Positions 1 to 14,150 of a DNA stretch of 64,000 nt are shown in pieces. Position 1 is the stretch's first letter; each line of letters opens with the position of its first letter. The stretch covers positions 1,426,001-1,490,000 of the forward strand of contig NZ_CP053835.1 of assembly GCF_013201725.1 (NCBI RefSeq), written 5' to 3'. The notes beneath the pieces are model-generated. The model did not search any database and had not been told where the DNA came from. It saw nothing but the letters and a program-made list of their open reading frames with translations. This DNA is from Arcobacter defluvii (GTDB lineage: Bacteria; Campylobacterota; Campylobacteria; Campylobacterales; Arcobacteraceae). The position numbers and the translations under genes are program-made.

Positions 1-1
1 T

Positions 2-1567
2 GAGTTTAAATCACATGAATCATCTATTAAAGAGATTATAAACAGATGTACAACTGCTGAAAAATTAGATAAAACAAAATATGAAGATTTTATAGAGGAA
101 GTAGCATATACTTGGTTTAATAGACTTGTTGCTTTAAGATTTATGGATGTAAATGATATTACAGATACAAAAGTAATCTCACCTCTTGATGGACATATAA
201 TTCCTGCAATATTCACAGAAGCAAAATCAGGAAATATAAGTGAAGATTTAAACATAGATAGAACTCAATTTTTTAATATTTTAGATAAAAAAGTAGAGAG
301 TAAAGACGGCGACAATGAGTGCTATAAAATGCTATTTATCTCTACTTGTAACTACTACTCTTCTATCATGCCTTTTATGTTTGAGTCAATCTCTGATTAT
401 TCTGAACTACTTTTACCCGATGATTTATTATCAACAAACTCTATTAGAACAAAAGTAATAGAAGGGATGAGTGAAGAAAACTGTGCTGATATTGAAGTTA
501 TTGGATGGTTATATCAGTTTTATATTTCTGAAAAAAAAGATGATGTATTTGAAAAATTAAAGAAAAATGTAAAAATCACACCATCAAATATTCCTGCTGC
601 AACTCAACTTTTTACACCACATTGGATTGTAAAATATATGGTTGAAAATTCACTTGGAAAACTTTGGATGCTAAATCATCCAAACTCATCTTTAAAAGAT
701 AGTATGAAATACTATATTGATGAAGATACTCCAACAGATACATTTTTAAAAATCTCAACACCACAAGAATTAACTTTAATAGATCCTTGTTGTGGAAGTG
801 GGCATGTACTAACTTATGCTTTTGATTTACTAACTTTGATATATGAAGAAGAAGGTTATAGTAAAAGTGAAATTCCAACATTGATTTTAGAAAACAATCT
901 TTTTGGATGTGATATAGACAAAAGAGCAGCAACACTTGCAAATTTTGCACTTACCATGAAAGCAAGATTATATCATAGAAGATTTTTCAAAAAATCTACA
1001 AATCCAAATATCGTAGAACTTCAAGAGTTTGGAACACAAGAGTTTAAAGGAATCAAAAACTTTGGTTCATTATTAGCTCCAAAAGATATACAAAGTTTTG
1101 ATGATGGGATATTTTCACAAAGCAATGCCCAATATGATTTACAACTAAAAATTTTAACTTCAACTTACTCATGTGTAGTTACAAATCCACCATATATGGG
1201 TGGAAAAGGTATGAATGCAGAGTTGGGAGATTTTGTGAAGAAAAACTATCCTGATAGTAAATCTGATTTATTTGCTGTCTTTATGGAAAGAGGATTTGAA
1301 ATAACAAAAGATTTAGGTTATATGGCAATGATTACAATGCAATCTTGGATGTTTTTAAGTTCTTATGAAAAAATGAGAGAAAAATTACTTAAAAATTATT
1401 CTATTTCTACAATGGCACACCTTGATAATATGGTAATGGGAATAGCATTTGGAACATCAGCAACAGTATTTAATAAAAAGAAACCTGATGCAAACACAAA
1501 AGGTGTTTATTTTAAAATAAATCTTGATGATTTAGATGAGAATAGAGAAATCAGAGGTTTAAGATGA
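2..1567 (+). CDS. pglX: BREX PglX, N-terminal methyltransferase half (5' end outside window)
   Basis: This is the catalytic half of the BREX N6-adenine methyltransferase, which marks host DNA so that the defence system spares it. The frame is open from base 2, so the true start lies upstream; 521 residues are visible. SAM-binding motif I (DPCCGSGH, near visible residue 261) and the catalytic NPPY motif (near 395) are intact. The frame ends with TGA at 1565-1567, just after the methyltransferase domain, and the stop overlaps the next start (ATGA). Usual PglX proteins are a single chain of about 1,200 residues; here the target-recognition half restarts at 3805. The family call is firm. That the halves work together in trans is inference. 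Confidence 0.9.
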   Translation, partial: EFKSHESSIKEIINRCTTAEKLDKTKYEDFIEEVAYTWFNRLVALRFMDVNDITDTKVISPLDGHIIPAIFTEAKSGNISEDLNIDRTQFFNILDKKVESKDGDNECYKMLFISTCNYYSSIMPFMFESISDYSELLLPDDLLSTNSIRTKVIEGMSEENCADIEVIGWLYQFYISEKKDDVFEKLKKNVKITPSNIPAATQLFTPHWIVKYMVENSLGKLWMLNHPNSSLKDSMKYYIDEDTPTDTFLKISTPQELTLIDPCCGSGHVLTYAFDLLTLIYEEEGYSKSEIPTLILENNLFGCDIDKRAATLANFALTMKARLYHRRFFKKSTNPNIVELQEFGTQEFKGIKNFGSLLAPKDIQSFDDGIFSQSNAQYDLQLKILTSTYSCVVTNPPYMGGKGMNAELGDFVKKNYPDSKSDLFAVFMERGFEITKDLGYMAMITMQSWMFLSSYEKMREKLLKNYSISTMAHLDNMVMGIAFGTSATVFNKKKPDANTKGVYFKINLDDLDENREIRGLR

Positions 1568-2145
1568 TAGAAAGATTTTTAGAATATCTTATTAAATATC
1601 AAGATGCTTTGTATGTAATAGGAGGTTTTGCTGCAGGTTCAATTGCAACATATTTTAAATTTTATCCAATTTTAAAAGAAAAAGAGAATAAGCAAATAAA
1701 ATTTGATAGTAACATTTTTAAACAATCAGATGCTGTTTTATCAGAAAAACAAATTAATGAACTTATTGGAGATTTAGAATCTAACCATTCATATAGAAGT
1801 AATCAAGATAATAGATTAAACTCATTTTTGTCTTTTTTTGAAGATACAAGTAATATATATGAATACAAAGAATTAAATTGTCATATAACTACTTTAAAAA
1901 AAGATTTAGAAAAACTTCAATATTTCTATTCAACTCATTTTTTTATTTTTCCAGATTATCAAACTTCCGATAATACTAAGTTTTGTATGTACCCAGAAGG
2001 AAATGTTGATAGAAATTGGAATGGTAAACAAGAAAGTAAGTCTAATTATGAAGAAAAGGAAGAAAAGCTTTTAGAATTATGTATTAAAACAAAAGAAAGT
2101 TACAAAAAATATAGATTAGAGATTAGAAAAATATTAAAGGTATAA
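1564..2145 (+). CDS. Hypothetical protein with one N-terminal membrane helix, inserted in split pglX
   Basis: Not recognised. The 193-residue product has a glycine-rich hydrophobic stretch at about residues 17-36 that could be a membrane anchor. It is followed by a charged region likely to form coiled coil in the middle and at the C-terminus. It starts within the stop of the pglX 5' half (4-bp overlap) and ends 1 bp before the next gene, so it is translationally coupled to the BREX operon. With the next two genes it forms a three-gene insert that separates the two halves of pglX. No catalytic motif is visible. Confidence 0.65.
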   Translation: MIERFLEYLIKYQDALYVIGGFAAGSIATYFKFYPILKEKENKQIKFDSNIFKQSDAVLSEKQINELIGDLESNHSYRSNQDNRLNSFLSFFEDTSNIYEYKELNCHITTLKKDLEKLQYFYSTHFFIFPDYQTSDNTKFCMYPEGNVDRNWNGKQESKSNYEEKEEKLLELCIKTKESYKKYRLEIRKILKV

Positions 2146-2146
2146 A

Positions 2147-2803
2147 ATGGAAATTATTACAAAAGTAAAAAATCAACTGGAAGAAATAAAGAAATTAACC
2201 ACAAAAGAAATTTTAAATTATTTAAAAATAGTTGCTTTTAGTATTTTAATAGTGGTATTTTTTACTATTTTATTTCAATTTTTTATAGGTAATGGTGAAA
2301 GAATTATTGGATTAATTAGTGCATTAGGTATTTTAATATCTGCATTATTAGCTTCTTACTCTGTGATGTTGAATATAGAAAATACAAATAATAATGAAGA
2401 AAAGAAGAAAGAGTCTGAAAAAAAATCAAATATTATTTATTTATTTCAAAATTTAAATGACATATTGTCTGTATTAAATAGATATAAAGACACAGACATA
2501 GGAACTTTTAGAATAAATACTCACAATACTTTGCTGTTAATTTTAGAAAAAAAACTTGATAAGATTGACGATAAAGAAATAATAAAAAATCTAACCGATG
2601 ATGAATCAAATTATTTGTTATTTGTTAGGTTAAGGTTATCTGAAAGTATTGGAATACTTTATAATTACACGCAATCAATTATTGTTGATGACCCTCAAAA
2701 GTTTAATGAAAATACAAAATTTATAATTGAAAAACTTAATCTATTAATACCACTATTGGCAACTAATAATAAAATTTATATTCAGAAAGTTGAGAATAAA
2801 TAA
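2147..2803 (+). CDS. Hypothetical membrane protein with two N-terminal helices, inserted in split pglX
   Basis: Not recognised. The 218-residue product has two hydrophobic segments (about residues 27-48 and 53-75), then a lysine- and glutamate-rich stretch and a predicted helical cytoplasmic domain. Its stop overlaps the start of the downstream DUF1016 nuclease gene by 1 bp. Gene order is membrane protein, membrane protein, nuclease, all tightly packed, which suggests one cargo unit. A role as membrane partner of the nuclease is only a guess. Confidence 0.65.
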   Translation: MEIITKVKNQLEEIKKLTTKEILNYLKIVAFSILIVVFFTILFQFFIGNGERIIGLISALGILISALLASYSVMLNIENTNNNEEKKKESEKKSNIIYLFQNLNDILSVLNRYKDTDIGTFRINTHNTLLLILEKKLDKIDDKEIIKNLTDDESNYLLFVRLRLSESIGILYNYTQSIIVDDPQKFNENTKFIIEKLNLLIPLLATNNKIYIQKVENK

Positions 2804-3804
2804 TGGATAAAAATCAAATCATCAATAAAGATTTTCAAACCGTACTAAGCCAAATACAAAATGCTAAACAAAAAGCATATAGCAGTGTTAATACTATTCT
2901 TATCGAGCTTTATTGGGAGATAGGAAAATATATATCTACAAAAACTACACAAGAAAATTGGGGTAAAGGTGTAGTCAAAGAGTTGGCAACTTTCTTAAAA
3001 GAAAAAGACCCAACTTCAAAAGGGTTTGGAGATAAAAACTTATGGCTTATGAAACAGTTTTTTGAAACTTACAAAGAAGATGAAAAACTCTACACACTGT
3101 GTAGAGAAATTTCTTGGAGCAATAATCGAAGGATAATGAGCTTACAAACCATAGAAGAGAGGGAGTTCTATCTTGTTTTATCTATTAAAAATAGATATTC
3201 CTACAGAGAACTTGACAAACAAATCAACACATCAACTTTTGAACGAACGATGATAGCTGATAAAAAACTCTCAACCGTACTAAAAGAATTACCTCAAAAT
3301 GTAAGTGGAGTGTTTAAAGATAGCTATATTGTGGACTTTTTGGATTTACCACATAATCATAAAGAAAAAGATTTACAAAATGGACTTATAGGTTCACTAA
3401 AAGAGTTTATCTTAGAGCTTGGTCTGGGTTTTGCTTTTATAGGACAAGAGTATCGTGTGCAAGTGGGGAATGAAGATTTTTATATTGATTTGCTTTTTTT
3501 CCATAGAACTTTACAGTGTTTGGTGGCATTTGAGCTAAAAGTTGGCAAGTTTAAACCAAGTGATTTGGGACAGTTGGAGTTTTATCTTGAAGCACTTGAT
3601 AGAGATGTAAAACAGCCCCAAGAAAATCCAAGTATTGGAGTGCTTCTTTGTAGAGAAAAAAATGATGAAGTAGTAGAGTACGCACTTAGTCGAACACTAA
3701 GTCCAACGATAATATCGCAATACAAAACAAAACTTATCCCAAAAGAGATACTACAACAAAAAATGAATGAACTTTATGAACAGCTTGAAAATGAGGAAAA
3801 CTAA
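2803..3804 (+). CDS. DUF1016/YhcG-type PD-(D/E)XK nuclease family protein
   Basis: A 333-residue protein of the DUF1016 (YhcG) family: an N-terminal helical domain typical of the family (start MDKNQIINKDF, then a YWEIGKYI segment) and a C-terminal PD-(D/E)XK nuclease fold. The nuclease site is visible as an aspartate in NEDFYIDLLFFH followed by FELKVGKF, giving the D-ExK pattern, and then by a GQLEFYLEAL helix. Members are often found beside or inside restriction-modification operons. Here it is the last gene of the insert in pglX and its stop is directly followed by the restart of pglX. DNA cleavage is inferred from family membership. Confidence 0.85.
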   Translation: MDKNQIINKDFQTVLSQIQNAKQKAYSSVNTILIELYWEIGKYISTKTTQENWGKGVVKELATFLKEKDPTSKGFGDKNLWLMKQFFETYKEDEKLYTLCREISWSNNRRIMSLQTIEEREFYLVLSIKNRYSYRELDKQINTSTFERTMIADKKLSTVLKELPQNVSGVFKDSYIVDFLDLPHNHKEKDLQNGLIGSLKEFILELGLGFAFIGQEYRVQVGNEDFYIDLLFFHRTLQCLVAFELKVGKFKPSDLGQLEFYLEALDRDVKQPQENPSIGVLLCREKNDEVVEYALSRTLSPTIISQYKTKLIPKEILQQKMNELYEQLENEEN

Positions 3805-5556
3805 ATGGCAACATACATAAGACTAACAGACTACAAAGACAGTGACAGCAAAGAACAAGGGTTTTTTAAGAGTGAAAATAGATATGAAGCAAAACAAGAT
3901 GATTTTGCAAAAATCCCTGGAAGTCCTATTGCTTATTGGGTGAGTGATAAAATTTTTGATAATTTTAAAAATATTCCTAAATTACATAAATACGCAACAC
4001 CAAGAGCTGGAATGATTACTGGAAACAATGAATTATTTGTAAAATTATGGCAAGAAATAAATTATAATAAAATTGGTTTTTCTTTTTCTAATCGGCAAGA
4101 TGCACTTGAAAGTGTTTACAAGTGGTTTCCCTATCAAAAAGGTGGGGCAGCAAGAAAATGGTTCGGAAATAATGAATATATTGTAATTTGGGAAAATGAT
4201 GGATTTTTATTAAAGACTACAACAGATAGTAATGGAAAAGTTCCTGCACATGCATTTAATGAAGAATATATTTTCAAACCTAATGCAAATTGGTCAGCAG
4301 TTACATCTGGATTATTTACTGTTAGAATTTCATTTAATGGTTCTTTATTTGATGCTTCAGGTTCTGCCGCTTTTCCAAATAATGAAAGTAACCTTTTAGG
4401 TATTTCTGCATTTTTAAATTCTAAGATAGCAAATTTTTTATTGAATGCAATAAATCCTACAATTAATTATCAAGCTTGGAATATTGGTAATTTACCAATA
4501 AATATAACAAATGGATTTATTAATAATATAGACACCTTAACTCAAGAATGTGTAGATATTTCAAAAGAAGAGTGGGATAGCAGAGAAATATCTTGGGATT
4601 TCACAGAAAATGAACTTCTAAAACACAAATCAGATTCTAAAATAGAAACTGCTTACAATAACTATTGTTCATATTGGAAAGAGAAGTTCTATAAACTTCA
4701 CGCAAATGAAGAAGAGTTAAATAGACTATTTATAGATATTTATGAACTTGGCGATGAGCTAACACCTGATGTAGCTCTAAAAGACATAACTATCTTAAAA
4801 AGTGAATCAATCATCAATGACAATAATGAATTAGAGTTTAAAGCAGATGAGATTATGAAACAGTTTATATCTTATGCTGTTGGGGTTATGTTTGGAAGAT
4901 ACTCAATAGACAGTGATGGTTTAGTTGTGGCAAATCTAAATCAAGATTATCCAAAAGATACCACATTTGAAATAGATGATGATAATGTAATTCCTGTTTT
5001 AGAAGATGACTATTTTAGTGATGATATAGCAAGTAGAATAATCAACTTTGTAAAAACAACATTTGGAAGTGAAAGTTTAAGTGAAAATATCAATTTTATA
5101 GAAAAATGTTTGGGAAAAACTATCAGAGCTTATATGGTAAAAGATTTTTATGAAGACCATATCAAACGATATAAAAAAAGACCTATTTATTGGATGGTTT
5201 CAAGCCCTAAAAAAGGTTTTATGAGTCTCTGTTATATGCACAGATACACAAATGATTTGTTTGCAAGAGTTCAAAACAACTATTTAAGAGAATATATCAC
5301 TAAATTAGAGGGTACAAAAGAGATTCAAAAACAAACAATTCTAAATGAAAATGCAACAAATAAAGATAAAAATGAAGCAGATAAAAGAATAAAAAATATT
5401 GAATTAAAACTAAAAGAACTAATCTCTTTTGATAGAGATAATTTAACTTCTTTTGCACAAAATAGAGTTGATATTGATTTAGATGATGGTGTAAAGGTAA
5501 ATTACAATAAATTTAAAGAAGTTTTATATCCTATAAAAGGGTTGGATAAAGAGTAA
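3805..5556 (+). CDS. pglX: BREX PglX, C-terminal target-recognition half
   Basis: This 583-residue chain is the C-terminal half of PglX. It contains the family segment KIPGSPIAYWVSD near residue 36 and ends in the helical region KGFMSLCYMHRYTNDLFARV seen in PglX. It has its own ATG with GAGGA about 8 bases upstream, immediately after the nuclease stop. Its first 20 or so residues (ATYIRLTDYKDSDSKEQ) resemble by eye the last part of the N-terminal fragment (KGVYFKINLDDLDE). The junction is therefore not a clean cut and may join two alleles. The break separates catalytic and DNA-recognition domains, as in methylase/specificity pairs. Whether it is active is unknown. Confidence 0.88.
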   Translation: MATYIRLTDYKDSDSKEQGFFKSENRYEAKQDDFAKIPGSPIAYWVSDKIFDNFKNIPKLHKYATPRAGMITGNNELFVKLWQEINYNKIGFSFSNRQDALESVYKWFPYQKGGAARKWFGNNEYIVIWENDGFLLKTTTDSNGKVPAHAFNEEYIFKPNANWSAVTSGLFTVRISFNGSLFDASGSAAFPNNESNLLGISAFLNSKIANFLLNAINPTINYQAWNIGNLPINITNGFINNIDTLTQECVDISKEEWDSREISWDFTENELLKHKSDSKIETAYNNYCSYWKEKFYKLHANEEELNRLFIDIYELGDELTPDVALKDITILKSESIINDNNELEFKADEIMKQFISYAVGVMFGRYSIDSDGLVVANLNQDYPKDTTFEIDDDNVIPVLEDDYFSDDIASRIINFVKTTFGSESLSENINFIEKCLGKTIRAYMVKDFYEDHIKRYKKRPIYWMVSSPKKGFMSLCYMHRYTNDLFARVQNNYLREYITKLEGTKEIQKQTILNENATNKDKNEADKRIKNIELKLKELISFDRDNLTSFAQNRVDIDLDDGVKVNYNKFKEVLYPIKGLDKE

Positions 5557-5581
5557 TTAATATTAAATATTACTTAAAATA

Positions 5582-5631
5582 AAATGTTTTTTATTTGAAA
5601 AACATTTCAAAATATTGTATAATTACAATAT
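5582..5631 (+). promoter_or_regulatory. Promoter and palindromic operators of the AbiE-like pair
   Basis: A hairpin with 10-bp perfect arms (AAATGTTTTT at 5582-5591, AAAAACATTT at 5598-5607) is followed by a palindrome with 8-bp arms (ATATTGTA at 5612-5619, TACAATAT at 5624-5631). A good sigma-70 promoter lies across them: TTGAAA at 5595-5600, a 17-bp spacer, then TATAAT at 5618-5623. The -10 box lies inside the second palindrome. AbiEi antitoxins are known to repress their own promoter through inverted repeats, so this is a likely autoregulated promoter. The first hairpin could also terminate pglX transcripts. Confidence 0.65.
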
Positions 5632-5653
5632 CAAAAAAGAAAAGGAGGTTAAG

Positions 5654-6370
5654 ATGTCAGTAGCAAAGATAACAAGAGATTTTGTGACAAATATTGAAGG
5701 TGCAAAACTATTTACTTATGATGATATACCATGTTTAAATAAAACATCGGCTGCTATTGAACTTAGCCGACTTTTTAAAAAAGGTATTATAAAAAAAATT
5801 TCAAAAGGAAAATTTTATAAACCAAAAATTAGAGTGTTTGGAGAAGTTGCTCCAAATACAAATGATAAAATAAAAAGCTATCTAAAATCAGATGAAACAA
5901 ATAGTTATGAAACAGGTGCAAATAGCTTTAGAAAACTAGGACTTACTACTCAAGTTTCAAATGAAACTGTAATAGCAACAAATGGAATATATAGAAAGGT
6001 AAAAATAGATAATATAAATCTAAAATTTATACCAAAAAGAGTTGATGTAAATGATGATGAGATTTATTTAGTTCAGATACTTGATGCTATAAAAGATATA
6101 AATAAAATACCTGCAACAACACCAAATGAAGTAGTTAAATATTTAAAAGAGATTATAAAAAAAGAATCTTTAGAAAATCAAAATAAGCTTACAAAATTTG
6201 CTTTGAAATATACTCCAAGAACAAGAGCAGTTTTAGGTGCGATTTTTAAAGAGATAGGAAATAAAAATTGTGCTTATGAGTTGAAATCAACTCTAAATCC
6301 AATGACAAATTATAAATTAAAAATAGAAGAAGATGTTATTAAAGATAGAAAATACTGGAATTTTATATGA
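5654..6370 (+). CDS. AbiEi-like (DUF6088-type) antitoxin/regulator
   Basis: The product, 238 residues from ATG 5654, has an N-terminal winged-helix segment (residues about 1-55, ending LSRLFKKGIIKKISKGKFYK) of the type seen in AbiEi and DUF6088 antitoxins. The start at 5654 is preferred over an in-frame ATG at 5615 because AAAGGAGG lies just before it. It overlaps the downstream nucleotidyltransferase gene by 4 bp (ATGA), the standard type IV antitoxin-toxin layout. It probably represses its own promoter and neutralises AbiEii. The pair sits between pglX and pglZ of the BREX operon. Confidence 0.8.
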   Translation: MSVAKITRDFVTNIEGAKLFTYDDIPCLNKTSAAIELSRLFKKGIIKKISKGKFYKPKIRVFGEVAPNTNDKIKSYLKSDETNSYETGANSFRKLGLTTQVSNETVIATNGIYRKVKIDNINLKFIPKRVDVNDDEIYLVQILDAIKDINKIPATTPNEVVKYLKEIIKKESLENQNKLTKFALKYTPRTRAVLGAIFKEIGNKNCAYELKSTLNPMTNYKLKIEEDVIKDRKYWNFI

Positions 6371-7332
6371 TATTACATAATGATAAAGAAACTTTTAATG
6401 ATTTGATAGAAACAACAGCGGGAGTGCTTGGCATTCCTGCTGTTTTTATTGAAAAAGATTATTGGGTAACTTATATTTTAAATAGGTTATCAAAAAGCAC
6501 TTATAAAGAAACTGCAATTTTTAAAGGTGGAACATCCTTATCAAAAGCATATAAAATTATAGATAGATTTTCAGAAGATATTGATTTAGCAATAATAACT
6601 GATGGAAAAGACGGAAATGCAGTTAAGAGTTTGATTAAAAATATTGAAAAAGCTTTGCTATATGAAAATTTTGAGGAAACGATTACTCCTCAAACCTCAA
6701 AAGGTTCAAAGTTTAGAAAAACGGTACATCAATATCCAAAGATAATAGAGGGTGATTTTGGACATGCAAATGAGAATTTAATCCTTGAATTAAACTCTTT
6801 TGCTAAGCCACATCCATTTGTTAGTAAAACTATATCTAGTTATATATTTGATTTTTTAAGTACTCAAAGTGATGAAGCAAAAAAATTAATTACTGATTTC
6901 CAGTTAGAGCCATTTGAAATAAATGTTTTGGATTATAAAAGAACATTTTGTGAAAAGATTAGTGCAGTTGCAAGAGCTTCATTTGAAAGTGATGAATTTT
7001 ATAGTCAATTGAAAGAAAAAATAAGACATTTTTACGATATTTACCACTTAATGCAAGAAGATGAAATAAAAGCATTTTTAAATAGTAATGATATGAATAT
7101 TATGATAGAAAATGTAAGAGAAGATGACCAAAAACAGTTTAGTTCTGATTGGGCAATTGTAAAATTACACTCAACAAAGATTTTTGAAAATATCAATATT
7201 TTAGATGAGTTAAATAGTTATTATAATAGTAATTTTAAAACATTGGTTTATTCAGAAACTTTACCAAATATAGAAGATATAAAAGCAAAATTTGAAGAGT
7301 TATCAAAAATACTAAAAGAGAAAGATTTATAG
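6367..7332 (+). CDS. abiEii: AbiEii/AbiGii-family nucleotidyltransferase toxin
   Basis: A 321-residue member of the AbiEii/AbiGii toxin family. The nucleotidyltransferase signature is clear near residues 55-80: FKGGTSLSKAY followed by RFSEDIDLAI, which supplies the GGTSLSK nucleotide-binding loop and the DxD metal ligands. A later conserved segment, RHFYDIYHLM, is typical of the family. Such toxins transfer nucleotides to tRNA or other targets and cause growth arrest upon phage infection. The gene is coupled to the AbiEi-like gene upstream and ends 1 bp before pglZ, so it is also read as part of the BREX operon. Confidence 0.88.
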   Translation: MILHNDKETFNDLIETTAGVLGIPAVFIEKDYWVTYILNRLSKSTYKETAIFKGGTSLSKAYKIIDRFSEDIDLAIITDGKDGNAVKSLIKNIEKALLYENFEETITPQTSKGSKFRKTVHQYPKIIEGDFGHANENLILELNSFAKPHPFVSKTISSYIFDFLSTQSDEAKKLITDFQLEPFEINVLDYKRTFCEKISAVARASFESDEFYSQLKEKIRHFYDIYHLMQEDEIKAFLNSNDMNIMIENVREDDQKQFSSDWAIVKLHSTKIFENINILDELNSYYNSNFKTLVYSETLPNIEDIKAKFEELSKILKEKDL

Positions 7333-7333
7333 A

Positions 7334-9805
7334 ATGAGTAAAATTGAACAAAGATTAAATACACTATTTCAAGAGCATAGAATTATCATTTGGTATGATG
7401 AGGGTGGAAGTTTAAAAGATGAGTTTGATTCAATCAATTTAGATATAAAAAAACTTGAATTAAATAATAATGAGTTTGGAATAAAAGTAAAAATACTTTA
7501 TGAAGATAAAGCTTCTAAATATCTAATTTATTCTGCAAATGCTGAACCAAATATGGAAGATAATTGGCTTTTGGATATTGAACAAAGTTTTCATAAATTC
7601 TCTGCTGACCCAATAAGTATGATTGTTAGTGAACTAGATCTTGATATTACAAAAAAAGCATTTATTAGTGAACATAAAGCATTTTTCAATGCAAAAAGTA
7701 GATTTGATAAATATAAATCAATTATTACAGAAAAAGATAGTGATGAAGAATTAACAAATAAAATGATAGCAATTATTTTAAATTGTGATGAAACACTTGA
7801 AGAGATTTTATTTAAACTAATTGCAAATGAGAGTTTAATAGATGAGTTAGATAAATATGAACTAACAAAAAAATTATTAAAAGAGATTTCTAGTAGGTTT
7901 AAATATAAAAGTGATAAGTTATCAATAACTGATTTAACTTATAAACTTCTTCAAAATCATTTTTATTCAAATGTTGAGCCATCAAAATGTGAGCTAAATA
8001 AAGAAGCAACACTTTTTGTAAAACATTGGATGGATAGTAATAGACATAAAGAACTATTTAAAACTGTATCTTTAAAAGTGCAAAATGATTTAAATATTCA
8101 ATCAATTATTTCAAATTATGAGTTGTCTCAAGTTATTGATTGTGATACTTATGAGGTTTGTGAACAACTTGTTATTGCAAAATTAAGAGATTTGATTGTT
8201 AGCTCAAAAATAAATGAAAAAGAGTTTGAAAACTATTTTAATAAAAGAGAACATAAGTTTTGGTATGAAAAATATGAGAATATTTATAAAGCATTTAATT
8301 ATGCAATAAAACTTTATTTTGGAATAAACAATTTCAAAGTTGATATCTCAAGTTTTGAAGATGGTATAAATAAATATAGTGAATATTGGTATGAAATAGA
8401 TTATAACTATCGAAAATTTGTCTATTTTTATAATCAAAGTAGCCATAAAGAGATACTAAAGTCTTTAAGTATTTTAGAAGATGCTTATTTAAACTCATAT
8501 TTAAGAGTTTTAAATGATAAATGGCAAAATTTTGTAAAAGATTACTCTGTAAAAATAGTAAATCATCAAAGAAGTTTTTACAAATCAAAAGTTCCTCAAA
8601 TAGTAGGAAAAAATCAAAAAGTATTTGTAATTATAAGTGATGCACTAAGATATGAATGTGCAAAAGAGTTATCAAAATTAATATCTTATGAAAATACAGA
8701 AAGTAGAAGTTTTAGTGTAAAAGAAAACTATATGATAAGCTCACTTCCTTCTTATACTCAACTTGGAATGGCTTCACTATTACCAAATAATGAAGTTGAA
8801 ATAAAATCAACAGATGATACAGTTTATGTGGATGGAAAATCCTCAAAAGGGAAAGATGCAAGAACAAAAATTCTTCAAAGTGAAGATATAAACTCTATTG
8901 CAGTAAATGATGAAGAGTTTTTAACTCTAAATAGAGAAAGTGGAAGAGAATTAGTTAAATCAAATAATATAATTTATATTTATCATAACCAAATAGATGC
9001 AATGGGTGATGATGCTATAACCGAAGAAAAAGTATTTGATGCTGTTGAAAGCAGTTTTAGTACAATCACTAAAATTATAAAACAAATCGTAAATCTAAAT
9101 GGAACAAATATATTTGTTACTGCTGATCATGGGTTTATTTATACAAATACACCAACGCAAGATAGTGAATTTTGTAAATTAGATACTACATTTATGGAAA
9201 CTTCAAAAGTAAATAGAAGATTTGTTATTGGTAAAAATTTAGAAGAAAATAGTTGTACACAAAAGTTTAGTTCAGATGAATTAGGAATTAGTGGTGATAA
9301 TGATTTTTATATTACAAAATCAATTAATAAAATCAGGAAACAAGGTGGTGGTAATAGATTTGTTCATGGGGGAGCTAGTCTTCAAGAGTTAGTTATTCCA
9401 CTGCTTGAAATTAAATATCAAAGAAAAAATGTAATTAGTGAAGTTGAAGCTACAATAATGCCAATTTCAACAATTACAACAAATAATATAAATGTATCAA
9501 TTTATCAAGAAGAGCCAATAAGTGATAAAGTAAAACCAATTACTCTTGTTTGTGGTTTTTATAGTGAAGATGGAGTTGAACTTAGTGATAAACATAAAAT
9601 CACTTTAAATAGTAGTGATGAAGAAAATAGAAATAGAGAAAATAAATTAAGATTTACATTTAAAGAGATTTCAAATAAATATAGTGGAAAATTTATTAAA
9701 TTTACTATGAAAAAAGTTATTGAAAATAGTAGTGAACAACCAATATATAAAACTTATGATGTTAAACTACAATTATCGTTCTTTAATGATTTTGATGAGT
9801 TTTAA
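7334..9805 (+). CDS. pglZ: BREX-1 PglZ, alkaline-phosphatase-superfamily protein
   Basis: An 823-residue core BREX protein. The C-terminal half carries the alkaline-phosphatase/PglZ domain: the metal-binding start VIISDALRYE near residue 435 and TADHGFIYT near 596. The N-terminal 400 residues are helical. PglZ is required for BREX defence and contributes a metal-dependent phosphoesterase or nuclease domain; its exact substrate is not settled. The gene begins 1 bp after abiEii and is followed 11 bp later by brxL, so all are probably one transcript. The length matches BREX-1 family members. Confidence 0.93.
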   Translation: MSKIEQRLNTLFQEHRIIIWYDEGGSLKDEFDSINLDIKKLELNNNEFGIKVKILYEDKASKYLIYSANAEPNMEDNWLLDIEQSFHKFSADPISMIVSELDLDITKKAFISEHKAFFNAKSRFDKYKSIITEKDSDEELTNKMIAIILNCDETLEEILFKLIANESLIDELDKYELTKKLLKEISSRFKYKSDKLSITDLTYKLLQNHFYSNVEPSKCELNKEATLFVKHWMDSNRHKELFKTVSLKVQNDLNIQSIISNYELSQVIDCDTYEVCEQLVIAKLRDLIVSSKINEKEFENYFNKREHKFWYEKYENIYKAFNYAIKLYFGINNFKVDISSFEDGINKYSEYWYEIDYNYRKFVYFYNQSSHKEILKSLSILEDAYLNSYLRVLNDKWQNFVKDYSVKIVNHQRSFYKSKVPQIVGKNQKVFVIISDALRYECAKELSKLISYENTESRSFSVKENYMISSLPSYTQLGMASLLPNNEVEIKSTDDTVYVDGKSSKGKDARTKILQSEDINSIAVNDEEFLTLNRESGRELVKSNNIIYIYHNQIDAMGDDAITEEKVFDAVESSFSTITKIIKQIVNLNGTNIFVTADHGFIYTNTPTQDSEFCKLDTTFMETSKVNRRFVIGKNLEENSCTQKFSSDELGISGDNDFYITKSINKIRKQGGGNRFVHGGASLQELVIPLLEIKYQRKNVISEVEATIMPISTITTNNINVSIYQEEPISDKVKPITLVCGFYSEDGVELSDKHKITLNSSDEENRNRENKLRFTFKEISNKYSGKFIKFTMKKVIENSSEQPIYKTYDVKLQLSFFNDFDEF

Positions 9806-9816
9806 AAAGGTTTATT

Positions 9817-11841
9817 ATGGGTTTAAATGAAAAATTAAATGAAGTATATGCAGGACTTGTTGTTAGAAAAGATTTAACAAAATCTATAAAAGATGGTGCA
9901 AATGTTCCTATTTATGTACTTGAATATCTTCTTGGAATGTATTGTGCTACTGATAATGAAGAACAAATAAAAGATGGTGTTCAAAAAGTAAAAGACATCC
10001 TTGCTAAAAACTATGTTAGACCTGATGAAGCTGAAGTTGTAAAATCAAGAATTAAAGAGCAGGGTAGATATAAAATCATTGATAAAGTTAGTGTAAAACT
10101 AAATGAAAATAAAGATATTTATGAAGCTGAATTTTCAAATTTAGGTATCAAAAATATTTTTGTAGAGAGTGATTATGTAAAAAATTACCAAAAACTACTA
10201 GCTGGTGGTATTTGGTGTATTATGACTATTGAATATTTTAGTGATGAAAACTCAAAAAGTAGTCCATTTAGAATAGAAAATTTAAAACCTATTCAAATGC
10301 CTAATATGGATTTTGAAGGGTTTGTTAAAAATAGAAATAGATTCTCAAATGAAGAATGGATTGATATTTTAATTCGTTCAACTGGTATGGAGCCAACTAA
10401 TTTAGATGATAAAACAAGATGGCATTTATTAGCTAGATTAATTCCATTTGTAGAAAACAATTACAATATGTGTGAACTAGGACCAAGAGGAACTGGTAAA
10501 TCGTTTGTATATAAAGAAATTTCACCAAACTCTATATTGGTATCAGGTGGGCAAACTACTGTTGCTAACTTGTTTTACAATATGGGTTCAAGAACAATGG
10601 GATTAGTTGGTCTTTGGGATATAGTTGCATTTGATGAAGTTGCAGGTATTAGATTCAAAGATAAAGATGGTGTTCAAATAATGAAAGACTATATGGAAAG
10701 TGGTTCATTTGCAAGAGGAAAAGAGCAAAAAATAGCAAAAGCATCTATGATATTCGTGGGAAATATTGATGGAAGTATAGAAAATATTGTTAAAACTTCA
10801 CATTTATTAAGTCCATTTCCAAAAGAGATGATTGATACGGCTTTCTTTGATAGATTCCATCACTATTTACCAGGGTGGGAAGTTCCAAAAATGAGACCTG
10901 AATTTTTTACAAATGAGTATGGTTTTATTACAGACTTTATGGCTGAATGGATGAGAGAACTACAAAAATACAATTTCTCAAATGCTATTGATAAGTTTTT
11001 TAAATTAGGAAGAGATTTAAATCAAAGAGATACAAAAGCTGTTAAAAAAACTGTTAGTGGTTTATTAAAACTTTTATTTCCTGATGAAAATTATACAAAA
11101 GAAGATGTGAGAGTTGCACTTGAGTATGCACTTGTTGGTAGAAGAAGAATAAAAGAACAACTAAAAAAAATTGGTGGTATGGAATTTTATGATGTAAATT
11201 TTTCATATATTGATTTGGAAAATAATGATGAAATAAGAGTAAATGTTCCTGAAAGTGGTGGTAAAAGTTTAATTCCTGATGGTGAATTACCAAATGGTTC
11301 TTTATATACTGTTGCAACTAATCCTGATACTTCTCATAAAGGTTTATTTAGATTTGATTTACAAGTTATGTCTGGAAATGGAAAACTAGATAGTGCAGGT
11401 TTTAGTAGTTCAAGTGACGTAAAAGAAGAGATAAAAGAAGCTGTAAATTATATAAATGCAAATTTAAATAGAGTTAGTATCAATGCAAAATACAAAGAAC
11501 ATGATTATTTTTTAAAGGTGCATGATTTAAATGGTATCGGAAAATCAAAAGGTATTTCACTTGCTGTATTTATTTCACTTTGTAGTGGAATATTAGAAAG
11601 ACCTATATTATCTCAAACTGTTATTTTAGGTTCATTTTCTATTGGTGGAACAGTTATTGGAACTGATTCATTGCCTGATGCACTTCAAATTGCAAGTGAT
11701 TCTGGTGCAAAAAAAGTTTTAATTCCAGTTGTTGATATGATTCATATAGGAAAAGTTCCCCCTGAATTATTGAGTAAATTTCAATTACTTATTTATTCAG
11801 ATCCAATAGATGCAGTGTTTAAAAGTATTGGGGTTCAATAA
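9817..11841 (+). CDS. brxL: BREX-1 BrxL, Lon-related AAA+ protein
   Basis: A 674-residue protein with an AAA+ ATPase core (Walker A GPRGTGKS near residue 222; WDIVAFDEVAG near 268) and a C-terminal Lon-like domain (about 500-674, including KSKGISLAVFISL and GAKKVLIPVV). BrxL is the terminal gene of type 1 BREX loci and is thought to act as a DNA-binding ring ATPase in the interference step. By eye, the Ser-Lys protease dyad of true Lon is not obvious: the segment where Lon has its catalytic Lys reads GTDSLPD. Protease activity should not be assumed. This is the 3' end of the BREX operon. Confidence 0.93.
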   Translation: MGLNEKLNEVYAGLVVRKDLTKSIKDGANVPIYVLEYLLGMYCATDNEEQIKDGVQKVKDILAKNYVRPDEAEVVKSRIKEQGRYKIIDKVSVKLNENKDIYEAEFSNLGIKNIFVESDYVKNYQKLLAGGIWCIMTIEYFSDENSKSSPFRIENLKPIQMPNMDFEGFVKNRNRFSNEEWIDILIRSTGMEPTNLDDKTRWHLLARLIPFVENNYNMCELGPRGTGKSFVYKEISPNSILVSGGQTTVANLFYNMGSRTMGLVGLWDIVAFDEVAGIRFKDKDGVQIMKDYMESGSFARGKEQKIAKASMIFVGNIDGSIENIVKTSHLLSPFPKEMIDTAFFDRFHHYLPGWEVPKMRPEFFTNEYGFITDFMAEWMRELQKYNFSNAIDKFFKLGRDLNQRDTKAVKKTVSGLLKLLFPDENYTKEDVRVALEYALVGRRRIKEQLKKIGGMEFYDVNFSYIDLENNDEIRVNVPESGGKSLIPDGELPNGSLYTVATNPDTSHKGLFRFDLQVMSGNGKLDSAGFSSSSDVKEEIKEAVNYINANLNRVSINAKYKEHDYFLKVHDLNGIGKSKGISLAVFISLCSGILERPILSQTVILGSFSIGGTVIGTDSLPDALQIASDSGAKKVLIPVVDMIHIGKVPPELLSKFQLLIYSDPIDAVFKSIGVQ

Positions 11842-12478: not shown

Positions 12479-12542
12479 AATACTATATTAAGAAAACTTT
12501 TTATATTATGCTTTTATGAAAAACTATAATTAGGAGAATATG

Positions 12543-14150
12543 ATGAAAATGGGATTTAATACTCCAAGAGGAAAATATGTAAAAAGCATAGAAGTTCCAA
12601 AAGATTTTACTAATGCCATATTTTTTGGAAGAACAGGAAGTGGAAAAACAACAGGTGCAATATTACCAATAGTAGAAGATAGAATAAAATCTGATTATGG
12701 AATTTTGATATATGATTTTAAAGGAAATTTACATTTACAAGTAAAATATCTTGCAAATAAATATAATAGATTAGATGATGTTATAGAAATTGGAAAACCT
12801 TGGGGAAAAAACATAAATATACTTAAGTATCTAACTACAAAACAATTTTTAGAGATAGTACAATCAAATACTGAAGCAAAAACAGATTTTTGGGATATTG
12901 CTTCAAGAAACTTATTAGAGGGAGTTTATAATATTTTAAAACTTGAAAAATATATATACACTCAAATAAATAAACTATTAGAGAATGAGTATAAAAATGA
13001 GATAAATATAAAGAAGATTCATAAAATAGTAAATAAACCAAGCAATCTAAAAAAATTTCTATTAGATTATAAAAAATCTAAATTAAAATTAATACATTTA
13101 GAATTTGAAAATGTTTTAAATAAGACTGATAATACATACTTAATAGATACTATTTCTAAAAAACTAGAAGAGTTAAAAGAGAATTTAGAACTATTATCAA
13201 ACTATGAATTAGCAGATGATGGTGATGATGCAGGAAGAAATGCAGTTGTTAGTCATTTAGCTTCATATACAGTAAATGCAGCATCATATGATTTTTTGAA
13301 TAAAGATGAGTTTGATATTGTAAATAGTTTAAGAAGTGGAAAGATTATAATAATTGATGTTTCTAATTTAACAGAAAACAGTTTAAATCTAATAAATTTA
13401 GGGATATATTCATCATTACAAAGAATAAATGAGAAAAATTTAAAACCTGTATCAATTATCATAGATGAAGCTCAAAAGATTTTACATAAAGATTATTTAC
13501 CACAAACAGATATTTGTAGAGAATCAAGATTTGAATATATTTTTGCAACTCAATCTGATGTATTACTAAAAAACAAACTTACATCTAATAAATATGATGA
13601 ATTAATTGAAAATATAATAACAAGATGCTCATTTGCAACAAATACAAATGATTTAGAAGAGACATATGAATATATAGATAGTCATTTTAGGTCATACTTT
13701 GCAACACCAATACTTATAAATGATGAAGATTTATTTAATATAGAAATCATTTATCAAAAAAATATAGATGTATATGATTGTATAGATGGATATATAAATG
13801 ATGATTTTTATCTAAAGTTTGATGCAAAACTATTTGAAGAGAATAAAATCTATAAGGTTTTTGAAAATGGAGAAAAAATAGAAGTTGATTTTTATGAAAA
13901 GATGGATGATAGCCCAATATTAGAAGATGAAAAAAGTATTGAAGAATTAATAGCTAACTTTGAATTGAGAAATTTTAAGGTTGAAGATAAAAAGAAAATA
14001 ATTGCATTAGCTTATGCAATAGGAGAAATGAATGAAAGAATCGAAGAGAATAGAAAAATCATAGAACAATTTAAACAAGAGAAAAAAGAGATTGAAGAAG
14101 ATTTCAAAATCGCTTTAAGGGGAATTAATGGGTTTAGGAATGGGGCATAA
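12543..14150 (+). CDS. VirD4/TraD-like DNA-transfer coupling ATPase
   Basis: A 535-residue P-loop ATPase of the type IV coupling protein/HerA-like group. It has Walker A GRTGSGKTT near residue 29, a YDFKGNLH segment typical of TraD/VirD4 proteins, Walker B SIIIDEAQK near residue 305, and ATQSD after it. No N-terminal membrane helices are visible, so it is a soluble form. ATG 12543 fits better than ATG 12540 because AGGAG at 12532-12536 is then 6 bases away. It would pump relaxase-bound plasmid DNA into a secretion channel, but no other channel genes are in the window. It may instead serve a mobilizable element or defence; transfer is the simpler reading. Confidence 0.75.
   Translation: MKMGFNTPRGKYVKSIEVPKDFTNAIFFGRTGSGKTTGAILPIVEDRIKSDYGILIYDFKGNLHLQVKYLANKYNRLDDVIEIGKPWGKNINILKYLTTKQFLEIVQSNTEAKTDFWDIASRNLLEGVYNILKLEKYIYTQINKLLENEYKNEINIKKIHKIVNKPSNLKKFLLDYKKSKLKLIHLEFENVLNKTDNTYLIDTISKKLEELKENLELLSNYELADDGDDAGRNAVVSHLASYTVNAASYDFLNKDEFDIVNSLRSGKIIIIDVSNLTENSLNLINLGIYSSLQRINEKNLKPVSIIIDEAQKILHKDYLPQTDICRESRFEYIFATQSDVLLKNKLTSNKYDELIENIITRCSFATNTNDLEETYEYIDSHFRSYFATPILINDEDLFNIEIIYQKNIDVYDCIDGYINDDFYLKFDAKLFEENKIYKVFENGEKIEVDFYEKMDDSPILEDEKSIEELIANFELRNFKVEDKKKIIALAYAIGEMNERIEENRKIIEQFKQEKKEIEEDFKIALRGINGFRNGA

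Follow-up and report, generated by a model that had tools for sequence, protein, structure and literature searches.

A two-gene PglX as a recurrent variant of the type 1 BREX system, with varied cargo genes between its halves

The stretch of DNA analysed here, referred to as the window, comprises 64,000 nucleotides (bases 1426001-1490000) of the 3.02-Mb single-contig genome of Arcobacter defluvii (NZ_CP053835.1). It opens inside a complete type 1 bacteriophage exclusion (BREX) operon that contains brxA, brxB, brxC, pglX, pglZ and brxL and in which pglX is present as two genes, one for the N-terminal half (N-half) and one for the C-terminal half (C-half) of the enzyme. The BREX methyltransferase is commonly treated as a one-piece protein with a built-in recognition domain. 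The divided form is a genuine variant of type 1 BREX and a recurrent one: the halves are intact, they recur in other genomes, their order can be permuted and the genes between them (the cargo) vary. Judged from the sequences, the variant is most likely functional. The reading that we favour, with a probability of roughly three in four, is that PglX would work as two subunits, comparable to a modification (M) and a specificity (S) subunit, and that the gap between the two genes would be used as a slot for cargo.

Both genes in the window belong to PglX

When the sequence upstream of the window is included (locus L002), the gene order is brxA, brxB, brxC, pglX N-half, a gene for a protein of 193 amino acids (aa), a gene for one of 218 aa, a DUF1016 nuclease gene, pglX C-half, an AbiEi-like gene, an AbiEii-like gene, pglZ and brxL (Table 1). 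All six core genes of type 1 BREX lie in this one cluster, BrxA and BrxB being recognized by Pfam, BrxC by NCBIfam and Pfam, and the PglX halves, PglZ and BrxL by NCBIfam. The earlier note on this DNA had described pglX as divided into a methyltransferase gene and a recognition gene, and the frames were found as described: the N-half ends at 1567 with a TGA stop, and the C-half starts at 3805. Coordinate 2 is merely the edge of the window, as the true start of the N-half lies 112 bases before it. The C-half is preceded by a ribosome-site-like sequence (GAGG, 8 bases before the ATG), and the spacing of the three inserted genes agrees with the proposed coupling to both halves. From the N-half to the C-half the junctions consist of an ATGA overlap (1564-1567), a 1-base gap (2146), a 1-base overlap (2803) and a 0-base gap (3804/3805). 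In promoter and terminator scans of bases 1-7400, which are no proof of operon structure, 5 terminator-like sites were found versus 1.4 expected and 34 promoter-like sites versus 48.4 expected, the strongest of the latter being located ahead of abiEi. The lone terminator-like stem between the halves (3088-3106) lies inside the DUF1016 gene, is listed on both strands and has a weak T tail on the + strand.

Each half alone exceeds the cut-off (500 bits) of the NCBIfam model for BREX-1 PglX (NF033452), the N-half with 574 bits (from base 143 on) and the C-half with 629 bits. The methyltransferase (MTase) motifs NPPY and GSGH are retained in the N-half alignment. A secondary match of the N-half to N6_Mtase (PF02384; 39.7 bits, cut-off 20.4) is far below those to the PglX models, and the C-half matched no Pfam family. 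Half-length PglX models in PADLOC match the halves over their whole length: PDLC02516, with 593 positions, aligns from residue 1 of the window C-half, and PDLC02526 (640 positions) covers residues 1-655 of the N-half of genome G929. PDLC02525 and PDLC02532 also fit N- or C-halves. Split-type proteins are therefore already known to databases, yet these models are labelled plain PglX, and no description of a split system is given in the tool output.

The two genes encode the same domains in the same order, and have the same operon partners, as the fused PglX (BrxX) of type 1 BREX, which is one polypeptide where the window has two. A single polypeptide with an integral target recognition domain (TRD) is treated here as a variant feature of type 1 BREX and not as a defining one. 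Separate genes for modification and specificity are also found in type I restriction-modification (HsdM and HsdS), and the C-terminal domain of PglX structurally resembles type I specificity subunits (PMC11341690; this and the other publications are cited from excerpts). The likeness to HsdM/HsdS is one of layout: both halves match PglX best, the C-half is without a Pfam family, the partners are BREX genes and no HsdR family was found among the operon proteins scanned. The excerpts examined from the BREX and defence literature (PMC12839542, PMC11341690, PMC11842806, PMC9240713, PMC12707154, PMC13326643) hold no description of a two-gene PglX, which does not imply its absence from print; the word 'split' is absent from the main text, as excerpted, of the 2026 BREX survey (PMC12839542), whose figures or supplements could contain such loci.

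The break lies near the boundary of MTase and TRD

Both halves were aligned with solved PglX/BrxX chains (PDB 8c45, 8q56, 9ewz, 9ex7, 9exh, 8zek), with E-values of 2.5e-92 to 2.5e-111. The alignment of the N-half reaches residue 630, and that of the C-half, whose residue 4 pairs with chain residue 619-620, continues nearly to the end. Because the alignments overlap, the two genes jointly cover the whole enzyme, about a dozen residues around one strand being present in both. In E. coli BrxX the MTase domain comprises residues 211-650 and the TRD residues 651-837, with hinge loops at 638-675 (PMC11842806), and the hinge of Salmonella PglX is at 654-659 (PMC11341690). Comparison of the half alignments with these published limits places the break near the MTase/TRD boundary. 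The window C-half starts at about BrxX residue 616, and the remaining Campylobacterota C-halves start at the identical alignment column. The N-halves of a second phylum (see below) extend about 24 residues beyond the end of the window-type N-half, and the halves of G929 join between positions 658 and 665 of a full-length model. The alignment separates the two breakpoints by about 24 residues, a hint that the split arose more than once. The split is not due to chance, since homologous open frames of 559 and 583 codons and a matching junction in further genomes are involved. The boundary strand (TYIRLTDY in the fused locus L003) is present in both halves in the window, L017 and L116, in the C-half only in L004 and L020 (L122 has the corresponding N-half end, and G929 was assigned by eye), and in the N-half only in the second-phylum group.

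A reversible or programmed switch, by which excision or inversion of the cargo would restore a fused gene, might be read from the closeness of fused to split relatives (L003 beside L004). It is barely conceivable in view of the junction: exact matches between the final 100 bases of the N-half and the opening 100 of the C-half do not exceed 7 bases, so that no long direct repeat is present; no recombinase family was found by family scan in the three inserted proteins; the N-half tail and the C-half start overlap and do not abut; and one genome (G1050) has the halves in reversed order. The first 30 bases of the C-half are 90-97% shared among the window, L004, L005 and L020. There is a hint of a recombination patch at this position, as the codon identity of L004 versus L020 is equalled by only 1 of 251 other comparison windows; other pairs are less striking.

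The split recurs in two phyla

The earlier note had proposed a search for the same arrangement elsewhere, and had held that a split confined to this strain would speak for gene inactivation. Instead, full-length stand-alone C-halves (full-length meaning a single match over at least 540 of 581 model positions) were found in 16 genomes: G000, G036, G252, G356, G362, G459, G1050, G804, G851, G887, G907, G923, G929, G954, G971 and G977. They break at or near the MTase/TRD junction and belong to the window's phylum and to that of genome G460 (bacterium BRH_c32), which we take to be Bacteroidota-related. The G460 group is placed outside the window's phylum on the evidence of the draws: of its 247 genomes 43 are listed, and the earlier Campylobacterota draw includes none of these, whereas many genomes of that draw return in the order draw. 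The N-half is also present in 15 of the 16 genomes.

At the level of the order, 13 of 398 genomes matched; all six full-length C-halves were stand-alone frames of 567-610 aa, and two more matches, in G1107 and G1006, were cut by contig ends. An earlier draw from the phylum, queried with the C-half protein and overlapping the order draw, gave 7 matches in 397 genomes, with all five full-length C-halves split. Within the family, the window genome and G356 were the only matches (2/104). A scan of public contigs yielded seven loci: L004 and L005 are split, L003, L006 and L008 are fused (L008 reads through the junction and is fused as far as the contig end allows), L007 begins within the C-half, and L009 is broken by an IS605-type element. 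In the phylum of G460, 23 of 247 genomes matched, the 17 full-length cases being divided into 10 fused and 7 split; in the family of G804, the genomes of which are partly shared with that draw, the match rate was 16/86, with 8 split and 2 fused among 10 full-length. By comparison, 24 of 249 genomes matched in the phylum of G462 (Clostridium tarantellae), and none of the 16 full-length cases was split: their frames are all fused and 1137-1244 aa long, and two contain in-frame stops.

Plasmid records with a match numbered 285. Three were examined and none was counted as split: the Rhodovulum record proved to be a frameshift, the Hymenobacter record is annotated in three pieces and broken elsewhere, and the Fusobacterium record has a single fused frame of 1209 aa. 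Eight records of the phage collection matched, and viral contigs scanned with two short patterns gave no relative.

Order of the halves and selection

At 12 loci both halves could be read on one contig, and ten of these have the order N-half, cargo, C-half. In G1050 (L116) the order is reversed: brxC, cargo, C-half, a 213-aa gene, N-half, pglZ. This indicates that the halves are independent genes. In G929 (L088) there is no cargo, and the halves share an ATGA overlap. The halves of G356, G923 and G851 are on separate contigs, each as a stand-alone frame; the contig of G978 holds only cargo and a partial C-half, and no N-half search was made there. C-halves of the relatives start with their own start codons beside cargo stops. 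The other five core genes are all present in the window genome, L004, L020 and G356 (over two contigs), most other stretches being too short to judge.

The ratio of non-synonymous to synonymous substitutions (dN/dS, NG86 method) was compared within groups of split rows. The C-half rows were the six of the second group plus the window, L004, L017 and L005, and the N-half rows L083, L084, L086 and L087 plus the window, L004 and L017; L018, L020, L088 and L116 were left out. Values were 0.10-0.32 for C-halves and 0.045-0.20 for N-halves, both being rough because several dS exceed 1, which lessens their weight in favour of a working enzyme. Both halves are under purifying selection in the pairs tested. 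Identity among C-halves ranges from 23% (G929 versus the window) to 94% (closest pair).

A tree of the C-terminal domain was made with 38 rows (42 C-regions passed the coverage limits; L033, L054, L045 and L048 were omitted as partial or of odd length, the window row, which is identical, stands for L002, and later-fetched loci are absent). On it five changes of the split label are required, at least four of them forced by starred branches. Fused and split rows interleave: split L004 has a fused sister, L003, and L063, also fused, stands among split rows. The placement of G929 is unsure because of its very long branch. Among six split C-halves (decayed L018 included) the mean identity is 39% in the TRD versus 68% in the C-terminal domain, and L004 and L017 share 29% and 87%, respectively. 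This would be as expected of an exchangeable specificity part.

In the N-halves of L083 (G887) and L086 (G907), 432 of 447 residues are identical to just past NPPY and 52 of 119 thereafter, while the C-halves are 93% identical; this reads as allele replacement inside the methyltransferase half.

A proposed two-subunit PglX and its alternatives

The suggestion that the split resembles an M/S layout and may be functional is supported by the recurrence of the separate genes, purifying selection, the reversed order and the cargo-free case. It needs one refinement: the three-gene insert does not define the split, since each half behaves as a gene of its own and the cargo differs between loci. In the reading favoured here, subunit M would be the N-half, an S-adenosylmethionine-dependent N6-adenine methyltransferase, and subunit S the C-half, with TRD and C-terminal domain. 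Judging from the gene spacing, the halves may be translated off one polycistronic message via overlapping or abutting start and stop codons, and the spacing may also keep their stoichiometry. They would assemble in trans at the MTase/TRD hinge and associate within a BrxBCXZ-type complex, in which the boundary strand could plausibly serve for docking. As in known fused systems, M and S, acting with PglZ, BrxB and BrxC, would methylate a BREX site, which in type 1 systems is a 6-bp non-palindromic motif with m6A at its fifth base, and would thereby license restriction. The inter-gene gap would be a slot that collects defence genes expressed with the operon, in the window two proteins without a family and a DUF1016 nuclease. 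Fused BrxX is a bi-lobed monomer, the lobes of which are linked by flexible loops; alone it does not methylate, and methylation and defence need the BrxBCXZ complex (PMC11842806).

Several observations weigh against a working two-subunit enzyme. Fused pglX occurs in the window's phylum too (L003, and L008 as far as the contig goes), and the 19 kb read of G1050 showed neither brxA nor brxB. In G036 (L018) a stand-alone C-half, pglZ and brxL persist beside transposase genes; no N-half match was found in the genome, nor brxA, brxB and brxC in the 18 kb read. This orphan C-half implies that split systems can decay. In Salmonella PglX the N-terminal domain could be expressed but the C-terminal domain, taken by itself, could not (PMC11341690), so that a natural C-half is expected to need its partner and may be unstable alone. 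AlphaFold models were too poor for an interface: that of the window C-half (8 sequences) had a pLDDT (predicted local distance difference test) of 58.0 and was good only in the C-terminal domain, and that of the N-half (6 sequences) had a pLDDT of 40.6.

Decay as in G036 would agree with plain inactivation, in which foreign genes interrupted pglX and the fragments are drifting. Other pglX genes are indeed broken, by a frameshift in L089 and by insertion in L009 (G462), where an IS605/TnpB-type element (7633-8793) interrupts the target recognition region, an ordinary lesion given for contrast. Inactivation of the split genes is nevertheless very unlikely, because stand-alone frames persist in 16 genomes down to 23% identity with start codons of their own, purifying selection acts on both halves in the pairs tested, reversed and cargo-free coupled forms exist, and fused and split rows interleave on the tree. 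The halves could also be expressed and repurposed, with the N-half acting by itself or together with a different specificity protein, or the C-half as DNA-binding partner of the cargo, and with classical BREX methylation lost or changed. The window-type N-halves (window, L017 and L116) carry their own C-terminal strand and tail, so that the C-half may not be needed to complete their MTase domain, and G036 retains a C-half without an N-half. Repurposing is unlikely, since the N-half almost always accompanies the C-half (15/16), the MTase motifs are retained and, where it can be judged, the other core genes are present.

A working two-subunit PglX, if true, would show the hinge to be a real modular boundary and would offer specificity subunits that are already separate, for structural studies and for re-targeting BREX. 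A wider proposal, which we put forward as tentative and rather doubtful, is that the MTase/TRD hinge is a recurrent breakpoint at which BREX would have become two-subunit M/S several times independently, that the specificity subunit diversifies and is exchanged like HsdS, and that the gap is a dedicated slot inside the enzyme whose cargo would be coupled to the integrity of BREX, as guard-type effectors resembling PrrC.

Genes between and around the halves

The cargo sets of the ten loci, including the window, are all different, although some families are shared (Table 1). Much of the cargo consists of recognized or candidate defence families, such as DUF1016/PDC-S02 and AbiEi/AbiEii in the window and RhuM, DUF3644, SIR2-HerA and the UG5 reverse transcriptase in relatives; several of these families have no more than candidate status in PADLOC (PDC), and for some genes no family matched. 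By family membership the cargo is probably defensive. Defence genes expressed inside the operons of host systems are known: PrrC in EcoprrI, BrxU and PARIS in BREX islands, and the nucleases of the 2026 BREX survey (PMC12707154, PMC11341690, PMC12839542). These likewise are defence genes inside the operon of another system, but they lie between two ordinary genes, whereas the slot in the window is between the halves of one enzyme. PrrC responds to inhibition of EcoprrI (PMC12707154), and it is speculation, by analogy, that the cargo might monitor BREX in a similar way. DUF1016-type cargo between hsdM and hsdS was present by annotation at none of six plasmid loci examined (of 468 matching records), which leaves that parallel unsupported.

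Table 1. Features of the split pglX region in the window and cargo of the other loci
Locus	Feature	Position	Strand	Remarks
Window	pglX N-half	1..1567	+	N-terminal domain and N6-adenine methyltransferase (GSGH, NPPY); full gene 559 aa, first 112 bases upstream of window (L002 13888)
Window	cargo gene 1	1564..2145	+	193 aa; ATG overlaps N-half stop (ATGA, 1564-1567); no family in Pfam, NCBIfam and PADLOC scans
Window	cargo gene 2	2147..2803	+	218 aa; two strongly hydrophobic segments; nothing above cut-off in family scan
Window	cargo gene 3	2803..3804	+	333 aa; DUF1016_N and YhcG_C PDDEXK nuclease; PADLOC candidate PDC-S02
Window	GAGG ribosome-site-like sequence	3793..3796	+	8 bases ahead of C-half ATG, within cargo gene 3
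Window	pglX C-half	3805..5556	+	TRD and C-terminal domain; 583 aa; ATG at 3805
Window	AbiEi-like (DUF6088)	5654..6370	+	pglX-pglZ gap; closely preceded by the best promoter-like match (5595-5623)
Window	AbiEii-like nucleotidyltransferase	6367..7332	+	pglX-pglZ gap
Window	pglZ (BREX-1 type A)	7334..9805	+	family match
Window	brxL	9817..11841	+	family match
L004	cargo			RhuM; 345 aa gene
L017	cargo			DUF3644; 348 aa gene
L020	cargo			107 aa; DUF6161/AbiZ-like; HEPN; KAP-like
L083 (G887)	cargo			Schlafen AlbA_2 + HATPase; contig end truncates the N-half at its 5' end
L084	cargo			KilA-N
L086 (G907)	cargo			HATPase/Fic-like
L087	cargo			Fic-like remnant; SIR2; HerA
L117	cargo			DUF1016; UG5-nitrilase type defence reverse transcriptase (7430-10450, - strand)
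L118	cargo			Schlafen AlbA_2; KilA-N

A family of 345-349 aa without known domains recurs near split C-halves in three genomes (L004 7963-9000, L017 6033-7079, L116 10117-11166) and is a candidate accessory or effector gene. The gap between the halves is an unusual place to seek defence genes, as this family and two uncharacterized proteins of the window stand there beside recognized or candidate defence families. The AbiEi/AbiEii-like pair of the window (5654-7332) marks a second cargo slot, the pglX-pglZ gap, which in L004 contains a YobI-like P-loop NTPase (1223 aa) and a DUF1016 gene with 63% identity to that of the window. Shortly 3' of brxL (12540-14150) lies a gene whose TraG/TraD-like match is weak and below cut-off; the gene is possibly part of a mobile island.

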